Positions 186-7,011 of a DNA stretch of 7,011 bases are shown here, one piece after another. This stretch comes from Candidatus Methylomirabilis sp. Its GTDB lineage: Bacteria; DYJV01. Location of the stretch: NCBI GenBank assembly GCA_020722945.1, contig DYJV01000092.1, positions 1-7,011 on the forward strand. The letters are read 5' to 3'. The notes below the pieces were generated by a model that was not told where the DNA came from, did not search any database, and worked only from the letters and a program-made list of their open reading frames with translations. The translations under genes were made by a program, and so were the position numbers. The first letter of the stretch is position 1. Every line of letters starts with the position of its first letter.

Positions 186-219
186 TGGCGAAATCACCTT
201 TTGTGGCGAGAAATCGCCA
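186..219. promoter_or_regulatory. Palindromic element plus partial second copy; candidate upstream activator site
   Basis: A perfect inverted repeat TGGCGA-GAAA-TCGCCA lies at 204-219. Just upstream, at 186-198, is a related imperfect copy, TGGCGA-AA-TCACC, so the TGGCGA half-site recurs after 18 bp. The centres lie about 130 and 150 bp before the transcription start inferred from the sigma-54 promoter at 318-332. That is the usual range for enhancer sites of sigma-54 activators. The GC-rich half-sites stand out from the AT-rich surroundings. Inference: this is the binding site of an NtrC-type enhancer-binding protein controlling the liv operon. It does not match the classic NtrC site (TGCACC-N5-GGTGCA), and it could instead be an operator for another regulator. 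Confidence 0.5.
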
Positions 220-317
220 TTAAAACCGAAAAAAGAGTGCTATTTTGAATATAAAAAATAATAAAACAGTGTGTTATAAAAGGTAGTTACAATCAAAAAT
301 ATTTTAAGTAATAAGAG

Positions 318-332
318 TGGCACTTCTATTGC
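318..332 (+). promoter_or_regulatory. Sigma-54 (RpoN) -24/-12 promoter of the liv operon
   Basis: The sequence TGGCAC-TTCTA-TTGC matches the sigma-54 core consensus exactly. The invariant GG is at 319-320 and the invariant GC at 331-332, with the required 10-bp spacing. Transcription would start about 12 bp downstream, near 344, giving a leader of about 36 nt that contains the AAGGAGG ribosome site at 366-372. No convincing sigma-70 -35/-10 pair was found nearer the gene. Established knowledge: such promoters need ATP-driven activation by an enhancer-binding protein bound upstream, which fits the palindrome at 186-219. Confidence 0.82.
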
Positions 333-365
333 GTTTAAAAAGCAGTTTAACTTTAATCAAATCAC

Positions 366-372
366 AAGGAGG
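366..372 (+). promoter_or_regulatory. Ribosome binding site that fixes the livK start
   Basis: AAGGAGG is followed 7 nt later by ATG at 380. This sets the translation start at 380 rather than at the in-frame GTG at 317. That GTG overlaps the sigma-54 promoter, lies upstream of the inferred transcript start, and would put 21 residues in front of a well-formed signal peptide. Confidence 0.9.
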
Positions 373-1653: not shown

Positions 1654-2517
1654 ATGTTAACACAGGTATTGATAAACGGTGTTCTTAAAGGTGGGCTTTA
1701 TGCACTTATGGCTCTTGGTATGTCTCTGATATGGGGAGTTATGGATATAATAAATATTGCTCACGGCTCATTTATTATGCTTGGGTCATACACTACTTAC
1801 TGGATGTTTACAGCTTTTGGAGTCGATCCCTTTGTGAGTCTTGTAATCTCAATGGGTGTAATGTTTCTTTTAGGTTATACTATTCAGAAAAATATAATAA
1901 ACCTGATTATAAAAGCTGAGATATTTATTACACTTATACTCGCTTTTGGAATTGAAATTTTTATTAACAACTTTGCTTTACTCGCATGGACATCTGATGT
2001 TAAAAAAGTTAAAGTTGCTTATGCTGCAAGTAATTTTCAATTTTTAGATATTACTATACCATATGTTAGACTTTTTGCATTTATTCTCGCAATCATAATA
2101 AGTATTATCTTATTCATCATCCTAAATAAAACACGATTGGGGAGAGCAATCCGTGCAACCTCCCAAGACATTGACGCTGCAAAACTTACAGGGGTCAAAG
2201 TATCCCATATATATGCAATAACATTCGGAATAGGGACAGCTCTTGCAGCAGCAGCAGGAACCCTCTGGTCAATCCTCTTTCCAATAAGCCCTATTATGGG
2301 TGGAGAGTTGACTCTAAAATCTTTTGTAATTACAATTATAGGTGGTCTCGGCACAATGCTTGGACCTATAGTAGGAGGGCTTACACTCGGTATAATTGAA
2401 GCACTCGGGACAAATTGGTTTGGCACAACTTTTGAAAATCTTATAAGTTTTACAATTCTCGTGTTGGTGCTGATATTTATGCCAAAAGGGATATTAGGGG
2501 GTAAAAGTAAATCATGA
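1654..2517 (+). CDS. livH: ABC transporter permease, LivH type
   Basis: A 287-residue inner-membrane permease, one half of the LivHM channel for branched-chain-type amino acids. Family marks are NIAHGSFIMLG at 34-44, the cytoplasmic coupling (EAA-type) loop at about 160-192 (TRLGRAIRATSQD, then AAKLTGV), IIGGLGTMLGP at 228-238, and the closing MPKGILG at 276-282. Hydrophobic segments run through the whole length, and the size matches the usual 285-310 residues. A GGGAG ribosome site (1641-1645) lies 8 nt before the ATG. The gene ends in an ATGA overlap with livM, which indicates translational coupling and equal amounts of the two permeases. Confidence 0.95.
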   Translation: MLTQVLINGVLKGGLYALMALGMSLIWGVMDIINIAHGSFIMLGSYTTYWMFTAFGVDPFVSLVISMGVMFLLGYTIQKNIINLIIKAEIFITLILAFGIEIFINNFALLAWTSDVKKVKVAYAASNFQFLDITIPYVRLFAFILAIIISIILFIILNKTRLGRAIRATSQDIDAAKLTGVKVSHIYAITFGIGTALAAAAGTLWSILFPISPIMGGELTLKSFVITIIGGLGTMLGPIVGGLTLGIIEALGTNWFGTTFENLISFTILVLVLIFMPKGILGGKSKS

Positions 2518-3470
2518 AAAAAACATTTCTAATAATATTTTTTATAGCTGTTGTTATTGCTATCCCATTTCTGGGTAATAATTTTATGATGAGATTTGCC
2601 ACTGATATCTTACTATTTGCAATCATGGCAAGTTCGTGGAATATTATCGGGGGATTTACAGGATATGCTTCATTTGGCAATGTGGTATTCTTTGGACTTG
2701 GGGCATATCTAACTGCACTTTTTATGAATTTACTTGGGATACACTTCTTCATTGCTATGGGTTTGAGTGCAGTATGTAGTGGGCTTTTTGCTTTTCTCAT
2801 AGGATTACCAGTCTTGAGACTTACTGGACACTACTTTGCAATAGCAACTCTTGGGGTTGCTGAAGCAATGAAAGCACTTGTTCAGAATCTTGAAATAACA
2901 GAAGGGAATTCTGGTCTCTATCTTCCAGCTCTTGACCTTGGAATAAACGCAACCTACAACTTTTTCTACTTTACATCACTTGGAGTATTAATAATACTGT
3001 TAGTTACAACCTCTCTGATACTAAAAACAAAGTTAGGCTACGGTATGATAGCTATAAGGGAGGATGAAGATGCTGCTAATTCACTTGGGATCAATGCAAC
3101 TCTATTTAAATCAACATCTTTTGGAATATCAGGATTTTTTACAAGTCTTGCAGGGAGTATCTACGCTTATCAACAAGGTTTTATCAAACCAAGTGCAGTA
3201 TTTGATGTTATAATCACCGTAAAAATGATTGTTATGGCTGTATTTGGTGGGATAGGCAGTATATTTGGACCATTAGCAGGTGCAATATCGATAGAGCTGA
3301 TATCTGAATTTTTATCCAACTATTTCCTTATGGCACATACTCTATTTTTTGGCACAATCATAATACTTGCAATACTATTTTTTCCAAAGGGTGTTGCAGA
3401 TATATTCAGCTTTAAAAGAAAGATAGGGCTTACATACTTTCTCGAAAATATAAAAAATAATAAGATATAA
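2514..3470 (+). CDS. livM: ABC transporter permease, LivM type
   Basis: A 318-residue inner-membrane permease and the partner of LivH. It carries the family motifs GYASFGNVVFFGLGAY at 50-65, LRLTGHYFAIATLG at 101-114, EGNSGL at 130-135, the coupling loop at 175-204 (GYGMIAIREDEDAANSLGI and following) and FGGIGSIFGPLAGA at 244-257. The end after FFPKG is a short basic cytoplasmic tail of about 27 residues. The length is close to the shorter LivM forms (about 310-330), lacking the N-terminal extension of E. coli LivM (about 425). The start shares ATGA with the livH stop. A purine-rich GGGGG stretch at about 2497-2501 is rather far upstream, so initiation probably depends on coupling to livH. 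Confidence 0.95.
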   Translation: MKKTFLIIFFIAVVIAIPFLGNNFMMRFATDILLFAIMASSWNIIGGFTGYASFGNVVFFGLGAYLTALFMNLLGIHFFIAMGLSAVCSGLFAFLIGLPVLRLTGHYFAIATLGVAEAMKALVQNLEITEGNSGLYLPALDLGINATYNFFYFTSLGVLIILLVTTSLILKTKLGYGMIAIREDEDAANSLGINATLFKSTSFGISGFFTSLAGSIYAYQQGFIKPSAVFDVIITVKMIVMAVFGGIGSIFGPLAGAISIELISEFLSNYFLMAHTLFFGTIIILAILFFPKGVADIFSFKRKIGLTYFLENIKNNKI

Positions 3471-3488: not shown

Positions 3489-4250
3489 ATGGGAAAAATA
3501 GGTGAAGTAATTTTAAAAGGTGTTGAACTTACTAAAGAATTCGGTGGGTTAAGGGCAAATAGTCAAGTAAGTTTTGAGCTAAATAAAGGTGAAATACTTG
3601 GATTAATAGGTCCTAATGGTGCAGGGAAAACCACTCTTGTAAATATGATTGCTGGGAACACATCGATAACATCAGGTGATGTTTTCTACAACAACAAATC
3701 TATAAAAGGGTTTAAACCTTTTCAGATAGGGAGGATGGGTATTTCAAGAACATACCAGATAGTCAAACCTTTTCCCGGTATGACTGTTCTTGAAAATGTT
3801 TCAGTAGGAGCTATGTTTGGATCAAAAGGGAGTAAGAGAAGTGCTCGTCAGGCTCTCGAAGCTGCAAAAGATGTTGTTTCATTTGTTGGTCTGGAAAAAT
3901 ATAAGAATGATCGGGCAGATGTCCTTAATATTGCCTCAAGGAAGAGGCTTGAGATAGCAAAAGCCCTTGCAATGTCTCCAGAGATAATTCTATTTGATGA
4001 AGTTATGGCAGGATTAAATTTAAGCGAAATAGATAAAGCAATCGAACTTATACTAAAAATAAGGGAAAATGGGACAACCCTTTTTGTAATAGAGCATGTT
4101 ATGCGTGTAATAAAAGCAATATGCGATAGAGTTTTTGTTTTACACCATGGAGAGAAAATTGCTGATGGACCACCAGAAAAAGTTTTAAACGATGAAACCG
4201 TTATTAAAGCATATCTTGGCAAACGATACAAAGAGCTTGCTTGCAGCTAA
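3489..4250 (+). CDS. livG: ABC transporter ATP-binding protein, LivG type, with a non-canonical signature motif
   Basis: A 253-residue cytoplasmic ATPase that pairs with LivF and drives the LivHM channel. Walker A is GPNGAGKTT (41-49), the Q-loop Gln is Q90 (SRTYQIVKPFPGMTVLENV), Walker B is IILFDE (166-171) and the H-loop is H203. The canonical LSGGQ signature is missing: the equivalent site reads LNIASRKRLEIAKAL (146-160), followed by DEVMAGLN instead of the more common DEPAAGLN. I recall a LivG branch with LxLAxRKRLE and DEVMAGL, so this looks like a subfamily trait rather than decay. GGAG at 3477-3480 lies 8 nt before the ATG, and the gap to livM is 18 bp. The length is typical for LivG. 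Confidence 0.94.
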   Translation: MGKIGEVILKGVELTKEFGGLRANSQVSFELNKGEILGLIGPNGAGKTTLVNMIAGNTSITSGDVFYNNKSIKGFKPFQIGRMGISRTYQIVKPFPGMTVLENVSVGAMFGSKGSKRSARQALEAAKDVVSFVGLEKYKNDRADVLNIASRKRLEIAKALAMSPEIILFDEVMAGLNLSEIDKAIELILKIRENGTTLFVIEHVMRVIKAICDRVFVLHHGEKIADGPPEKVLNDETVIKAYLGKRYKELACS

Positions 4251-4286: not shown

Positions 4287-4994
4287 ATGTTAATCGAAGT
4301 TAAAGATCTAAATGTTTCTTACGGTGATGTTCAAGTGCTATGGGGACTTAACTTTACGATAAAAGAGGGTGCAATAGTTGCACTTGTTGGCTCAAATGGA
4401 GCAGGCAAAACAACATTTTTAAGAGCTTTATCAGGAATCATCAAATACAAAAATGGTGATATACTCTACAATGGAGAATCACTTAAAAATATGCCTTCCG
4501 AAAAAATTGTCGAAAGAGGGATAATTCATGTTCCTGAAGGGAGAAAGTTATTCCCTGAAATGACCGTTGAAGAGAATCTTCTTATGGGTGCATATCATAG
4601 GAAGGGTGACCCTGAGATAAAAAATGACATTGATAACATATATTCACTCTTTTCTCGATTAAAAGAGCGAAGACTTCAAAAAGCTGGGAGTTTATCTGGT
4701 GGCGAGCAGCAAATGTGTGCTATTGCAAGGGGATTAATGGGTAGACCAACTGTTTTACTTATTGATGAGATGAGCCTTGGTCTTGCTCCACTCATTGTGG
4801 ACAATCTGATAGATATAGTTCACAAGATACGAAAAGATGGGACTACCGTAGTTTTAGTTGAACAAGATGTTCAGCTTGCTCTTGATAACTCTGATTACGG
4901 TTATGTCATAGATACAGGTAAGATAGTGCTTGAAGGGAATTCAAAAGATCTTTTATGCAACTCTGATGTTAAAAAGATATATCTTGGACTTTGA
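4287..4994 (+). CDS. livF: ABC transporter ATP-binding protein, LivF type
   Basis: A 235-residue cytoplasmic ATPase and partner of LivG. Walker A is GSNGAGKTT (35-43). VPEGRKLFPEMTVEENL (82-98) is the LivF-typical region in place of a plain Q-loop. The signature LSGGEQQ (136-142) is intact, Walker B is VLLIDE (156-161), and VEQD (191-194) puts Gln at the usual H-loop His, as is normal in LivF. AGGAGG at 4277-4282 lies 4 nt before the ATG, and the gap after livG is 36 bp. This is the last gene of the operon. The length matches the family (233-240). Confidence 0.96.
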   Translation: MLIEVKDLNVSYGDVQVLWGLNFTIKEGAIVALVGSNGAGKTTFLRALSGIIKYKNGDILYNGESLKNMPSEKIVERGIIHVPEGRKLFPEMTVEENLLMGAYHRKGDPEIKNDIDNIYSLFSRLKERRLQKAGSLSGGEQQMCAIARGLMGRPTVLLIDEMSLGLAPLIVDNLIDIVHKIRKDGTTVVLVEQDVQLALDNSDYGYVIDTGKIVLEGNSKDLLCNSDVKKIYLGL

Positions 4995-6779: not shown

Positions 6780-6959
6780 TAAAAAGATAAAGTAGGAAAT
6801 TATAGAAAATTTTGAGATTGTTTAAGGTCAAACAGAAATAACAAGTTTATTTTAACTAAAAAATATGGGTAAAATGAAGATTACACAAAATAAAAAAATA
6901 GTAACAACAAATTTAGAAACCTCTCAGCCCCAACATCTACAATTTCAAAGTCAACTTTA
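6780..6959. other. AT-rich non-coding stretch upstream of the NFACT gene
   Basis: No supportable gene is seen. A 31-codon reading frame (ATG 6865, TAA 6958-6960) lacks a ribosome site and was rejected. A short palindrome AAAGT-CA-ACTTT lies at 6947-6958, directly next to the GC-rich repeat that starts at 6960. Confidence 0.5.
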
Positions 6960-7011
6960 ATTCCCCTCTGAAGGAGGGGTGGCACCGTCAGGTGATGGGG
7001 ATTCCCCTCTA
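6960..7011. repeat. GC-rich palindromic repeat, start of a 41-bp-period tandem, cut by the window end
   Basis: The unit begins ATTCCCCTCT at 6960-6969, and the same ten bases recur at 7001-7010, giving a 41-bp period. Within the unit, CCCCTC (6963-6968) pairs with GAGGGG (6974-6979), and CCGTCA (6985-6990) pairs with TGATGG (6993-6998) through one G-U wobble; CACC/GGTG (6983-6986 with 6991-6994) is an alternative small hairpin. Base composition jumps sharply against the AT-rich flanks. It resembles the dispersed intergenic palindromes with CCCCTC/GAGGGG stems and a GTCAGGTGACGG-like core that I recall from several bacterial phyla. The second copy diverges right after the tenth base (A instead of G at 7011), and its remainder lies outside the window. 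Confidence 0.72.

Follow-up and report, generated by a model that had tools for sequence, protein, structure and literature searches.

The five genes livKHMGF are predicted to form an operon under enhancer-dependent control, with a sigma-54 promoter in front of livK and an AAA+ activator that would act by DNA looping from two sites farther upstream, a reading to which a probability of roughly 0.6 is assigned. In this reading, sigma-54 RNA polymerase would transcribe livKHMGF from the element at 318-332, starting near 343-344, and an enhancer-binding protein of the AAA+ type, acting as a dimer and carrying a Fis-type helix-turn-helix, would bind the tandem TGGCGA-type sites at 186-219, loop over about 100 bp and remodel the closed complex through ATP hydrolysis. 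The window, meaning the whole stretch of DNA that was analysed, is an entire contig of 7011 bases (C1) from a genome assembly of 2.51 Mb in 184 contigs with contamination of 5.79%, and all genome-wide statements about motifs refer to pattern searches of these contigs. The contig begins 379 bp upstream of livK; the G+C content of this upstream stretch is 27%, and positions 1-316 contain no long reading frame. The genes livK, livH, livM, livG and livF follow, and beyond livF the other strand encodes an RqcH/FbpA-like gene. The far end of the window (6958-7011) is a G+C-rich stretch (ATTCCCCTCTGAAGGAGGGG...) resembling a dispersed repeat that broke the assembly; no match to it was found in the other loci compared. 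The coordinates of the features discussed are collected in Table 1.

Table 1. Genes and predicted control elements of the livKHMGF region, in coordinates of the window.
Feature	Coordinates	Strand	Basis or remark
Degenerate second copy TGGCGA-AA-TCACCT, predicted second activator site	186-199		centre about -151 from inferred start; sequence
Perfect palindrome TGGCGA-GAAA-TCGCCA, predicted activator site	204-219		centre about -132 from inferred start; sequence, shuffles
Predicted sigma-54 -24/-12 element, TGGCAC-N5-TTGC	318-332	+	sequence, genome pattern searches, shuffles
Inferred transcription start	about 343-344	+	predicted position, placed about 12 bp past the GC of the -12 element
Shine-Dalgarno AAGGAGG of livK	366-372	+	sequence
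livK, Liv/Urt-type substrate-binding protein, 400 aa	380-1582	+	family search
livH, permease	1654-2517	+	family search
livM, permease	2514-3470	+	family search
livG, ATPase	3489-4250	+	family search
livF, ATPase	4287-4994	+	family search

The element TGGCACTTCTATTGC, TGGCAC-TTCTA-TTGC, is an exact match to the -24/-12 consensus in the correct orientation, 48 bp before the livK ATG, with the ten-base spacing between GG and GC that the sigma-54 form demands; the original prediction had given its sequence, spacing and coordinates correctly. The pattern TGGCAC/T-N5-TTGC appeared in none of 5000 dinucleotide shuffles of positions 1-379, a figure that flatters the promoter, as those below flatter the palindrome and its second copy, because all these calculations followed the choice of the feature. 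The genome has one rpoN, on contig C23 (PF04552, E 1.3e-57). The exact sequence TGGCAC-N5-TTGC occurs three times genome-wide: once each upstream of livK, upstream of a flgH-like gene and within purE. The pattern TGGCAY-N5-TTGC occurs at 15 sites, versus 2 for a reversed control pattern, and 13 of the 15 precede genes in the correct orientation, namely nine flagellar operons (one of these sites falls at the end of the gene before it), three acyl-CoA genes, all on contig C69, and livK, the gene names at the 15 sites being read off translations and reading-frame context without a family search; the other two sites are inside unrelated genes. Because the same motif precedes flagellar and acyl-CoA genes, the promoter before livK is of the ordinary working type in this organism, and its identification as a sigma-54 promoter is well supported and almost certainly right.

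The acyl-CoA genes constitute a firmer sigma-54 circuit than that of livK. A PAS-domain sigma-54 activator is encoded on C69:1-8000 (L076) among genes for an acyl-CoA dehydrogenase, a thiolase, a dehydrogenase and a hydratase, and the cluster has three TGGCAT-N5-TTGC promoters. The activator is 67-69% identical to its counterpart on contig C341 of G001, where three such promoters are kept. G001, from the same order as the host, is the sole relative among the compared genomes that is closer than the same domain; it contains four TGGCAY-N5-TTGC sites, of which three fall in the matching acyl-CoA cluster and the fourth precedes a flagellar gene.

Upstream of the livK promoter, the palindrome TGGCGA-N4-TCGCCA and its partial second copy have the positions and sequences originally reported for them, with 98 bp separating the palindrome from the -24/-12 element. 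The second copy differs by two mismatches and by a spacer of 2 bp versus 4 bp. Inverted repeats of 6 bp are no more frequent in positions 1-317 than shuffling would produce (3 seen, 3.0 expected), but those with at least four G:C pairs arose in 0.3% of shuffles, and a further TGGCGA-like site would turn up within 60 bp with a chance of about 0.002 (148 kb of this genome contain 2 of them), both figures being subject to the caution given above. The tandem palindromes are non-random by these counts, and -132 and -151 are usual distances for sigma-54 activator sites. Enhancer-dependent control as originally proposed for the operon is supported in part: its sigma-54 promoter is backed by rpoN, by the activators described below and by the same motif before 12 other operons, whereas the tandem palindrome may plausibly act as an enhancer.

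The palindrome at 204-219 is the sole exact copy in the genome. Nine other matches have two mismatches or fewer, eight of them inside genes and one on the unrelated contig C166. No TGGCGA palindrome lies within 260 bp of the other 12 sigma-54 promoters, apart from one match with three mismatches. Several candidate second sites were rejected. A second exact match to the core (GGCGATTTTTCGCC, contig C61) is inside an apparent type III restriction gene, and a BLAST match of window positions 167-196 on contig C44, close to an activator gene, falls within a reading frame for a TPR protein. The intergenic match on C166 was set aside; this phage-like contig has an nrdD-like gene bearing an apparent insertion. 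The insertion in this gene, which resembles that of an anaerobic ribonucleotide reductase, appears intein-like; C166:1-1748 (L123) also has short direct repeats, and the contig looks like a phage or an assembly contaminant. The expectation that the palindrome would mark a regulon of several operons was not upheld, as genome searches at zero, one and two mismatches gave no sensible second site; therefore the palindrome either serves the livK operon only or is not an activator site. Since the site is seen once, it cannot be called a motif. When the palindrome core and the promoter were sought 80-110 bp apart in 386 genomes, the combination was found at three other places in two genomes, all of 56-59% G+C and overlapping open reading frames, and conservation across phyla was rejected. 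Among 27 papers listed as containing the strings TGGCGA/TCGCCA, none stood out as clearly pertinent. The best reading of 186-219 is a tandem activator site for livK only.

The genome encodes ten proteins with a strong sigma-54-activator domain, all ten of which have a Fis-type helix-turn-helix. Six of them (E3, E4, E5, E7, E8 and E9) have reciprocal counterparts of more than 50% identity in G001, and four do not: E1 (contig C140), E2 (C31), E6 (C160) and E10 (C114). The loop that contacts sigma-54, GAFTGA, is altered to GAFTNA in E6 (L075:5402-6766) and to GVATGV in E10 (L078:578-1810), and both may therefore fail in the usual sigma-54 activation. The response regulators E1, which adjoins an NtrY-like kinase, and E2 are slightly favoured as the activator of livK, because their contact loop is intact and they have no clear counterpart in G001, whose livK lacks the promoter; this weak pointer assumes joint gain or loss of activator and promoter, which is itself a weak assumption. 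No activator gene adjoins the liv operon within contig C1, which starts 379 bp before livK. An enhancer-binding protein that may be uncharacterised is compatible with the data as the protein that binds the palindrome. The narrower proposal, that a lineage-specific sigma-54 activator recognises TGGCGA-N4-TCGCCA and controls the livKHMGF operon only, is put forward tentatively, at somewhat less than even odds.

The order K-H-M-G-F, together with family-level matches, is the arrangement of a Liv-type ABC transporter. All five genes score under the curated cut-offs of the Liv and Urt (urea) models, and the substrate of LivK is left unassigned because its best NCBIfam score, 109 bits, falls short of the cut-off of 477. 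Among possible functions of the livKHMGF product, uptake of amino acids would be the most probable; a particular substrate, and nitrogen status or fermentation as the signal for the operon, are unsupported guesses. The LivK protein of G001 is 73% identical to that of the host, and its gene has neither a -24/-12 element nor the palindrome upstream in this one relative of the same order. It lies 72 bp after an acetyl/propionyl-CoA synthetase-like gene, with a sigma-70-like TTGACA-N17-TATACA readable between the two, and it is not succeeded by livH, the next frame being short and convergent (C260:1-3223, L051). This arrangement differs from that of a livK heading livKHMGF, so that it speaks neither for the predicted control nor clearly against it, and the position of the lone G001 gene after a CoA synthetase-like gene hints that its substrate is not a branched-chain amino acid. 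Before the livK homologues of other genomes (33 loci), a search for -24/-12 promoters gave only two weak matches, with two mismatches.

The uniqueness of the palindrome leaves room for other roles. The sigma-54 promoter might be real and the palindromes the operator of a different regulator, such as a repressor or a dimer with a helix-turn-helix that works on a sigma-70 promoter farther upstream or blocks the loop, with the true activator site elsewhere in 1-317. The absence of the palindrome from all other sigma-54 promoters fits this alternative, as does the 27% G+C region, which has other possible sites and includes weak sigma-70-like matches at 2-31 and 24-53. However, the 36 sigma-70-like matches counted across the window do not clearly exceed the mean for shuffles (28.2, sd 5.1), and tandem dimeric sites at -132 and -151 occupy the usual positions of an activator; a different regulator is judged unlikely. 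Alternatively, the palindrome might be functionless, a product of chance or a relic, with only the sigma-54 promoter of importance. It is unique in the genome, is not conserved in the sole relative G001 and was singled out post hoc in a large scan; against this, the rarity of its G+C-rich arms among shuffles and of a second copy so close by makes an accident improbable.

The palindrome could also act as RNA, as a hairpin (stem and GAAA tetraloop) within a longer transcript initiated at a point farther upstream. Positions 200-224 fold at -10.6 kcal/mol, compared with a shuffle mean of -2.1 (z -4.9), and just upstream, at about 120-158, there is an Ile/Leu-rich reading frame of 12 codons, MKSYIIFILNIF, preceded by GGGAGAGAG, which could be a leader peptide or a chance occurrence in A+T-rich DNA. 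Good folding is expected of any perfect G+C-rich palindrome, however, and the short frame has no alternative hairpin beside it. No terminator is listed near the palindrome and no T run is present on either strand; in Rfam no family scored above threshold, the best match (E 0.47) being an unrelated sRNA on the other strand. Because the -24/-12 element is downstream of the palindrome, the hairpin would be missing from the main transcript, and a role in RNA is considered highly improbable. The preferred reading is still that of an activator site paired with the sigma-54 promoter. If it is correct, one more transporter operon joins the sigma-54 regulon of a little-studied lineage, a regulon with flagella and acyl-CoA breakdown at its core, and the palindrome offers a defined DNA site for capturing the activator.

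The NtrC consensus is TGCACY-N5-RGTGCA. NtrC-activated promoters such as glnAp2 resemble the livK promoter in having tandem dimeric sites 100-150 bp upstream of the -24/-12 element, but the TGGCGA half-sites with 4-bp spacing do not fit the NtrC consensus, in agreement with the original prediction. The acyl-CoA cluster on contig C69 shares the TGGCAY-N5-TTGC promoter with livK; unlike livK, it encodes its activator beside the targets and is conserved in G001, and it has no TGGCGA palindrome. In Desulfovibrio, every activator recognises a motif of its own, with nearly half of the 33 motifs unlike any other, and most sigma-54 regulons comprise one to four operons (PMC4641369). Because such small regulons are usual there, a site with a single target would not be odd, although the Desulfovibrio motifs were derived by comparing orthologous promoters in several species and the palindrome is one instance. 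The Liv families COG0683, COG0559, COG4177 and COG0410 are reported to be over-represented among the predicted sigma-54 targets of Proteobacteria, mainly for alpha-, beta- and gammaproteobacteria (PMC12316311), and in Sinorhizobium livKFGMH responds to nitrogen stress (PMC3596328). The transporter families are the same here; what differs is the host, from a lineage of which two genomes were compared, and a palindrome that is not NtrC-like. The arrangement before the liv operon is accordingly an ordinary one that leaves general ideas on sigma-54 control unchanged, sigma-54 control of Liv-type transporters having already been described in Proteobacteria.
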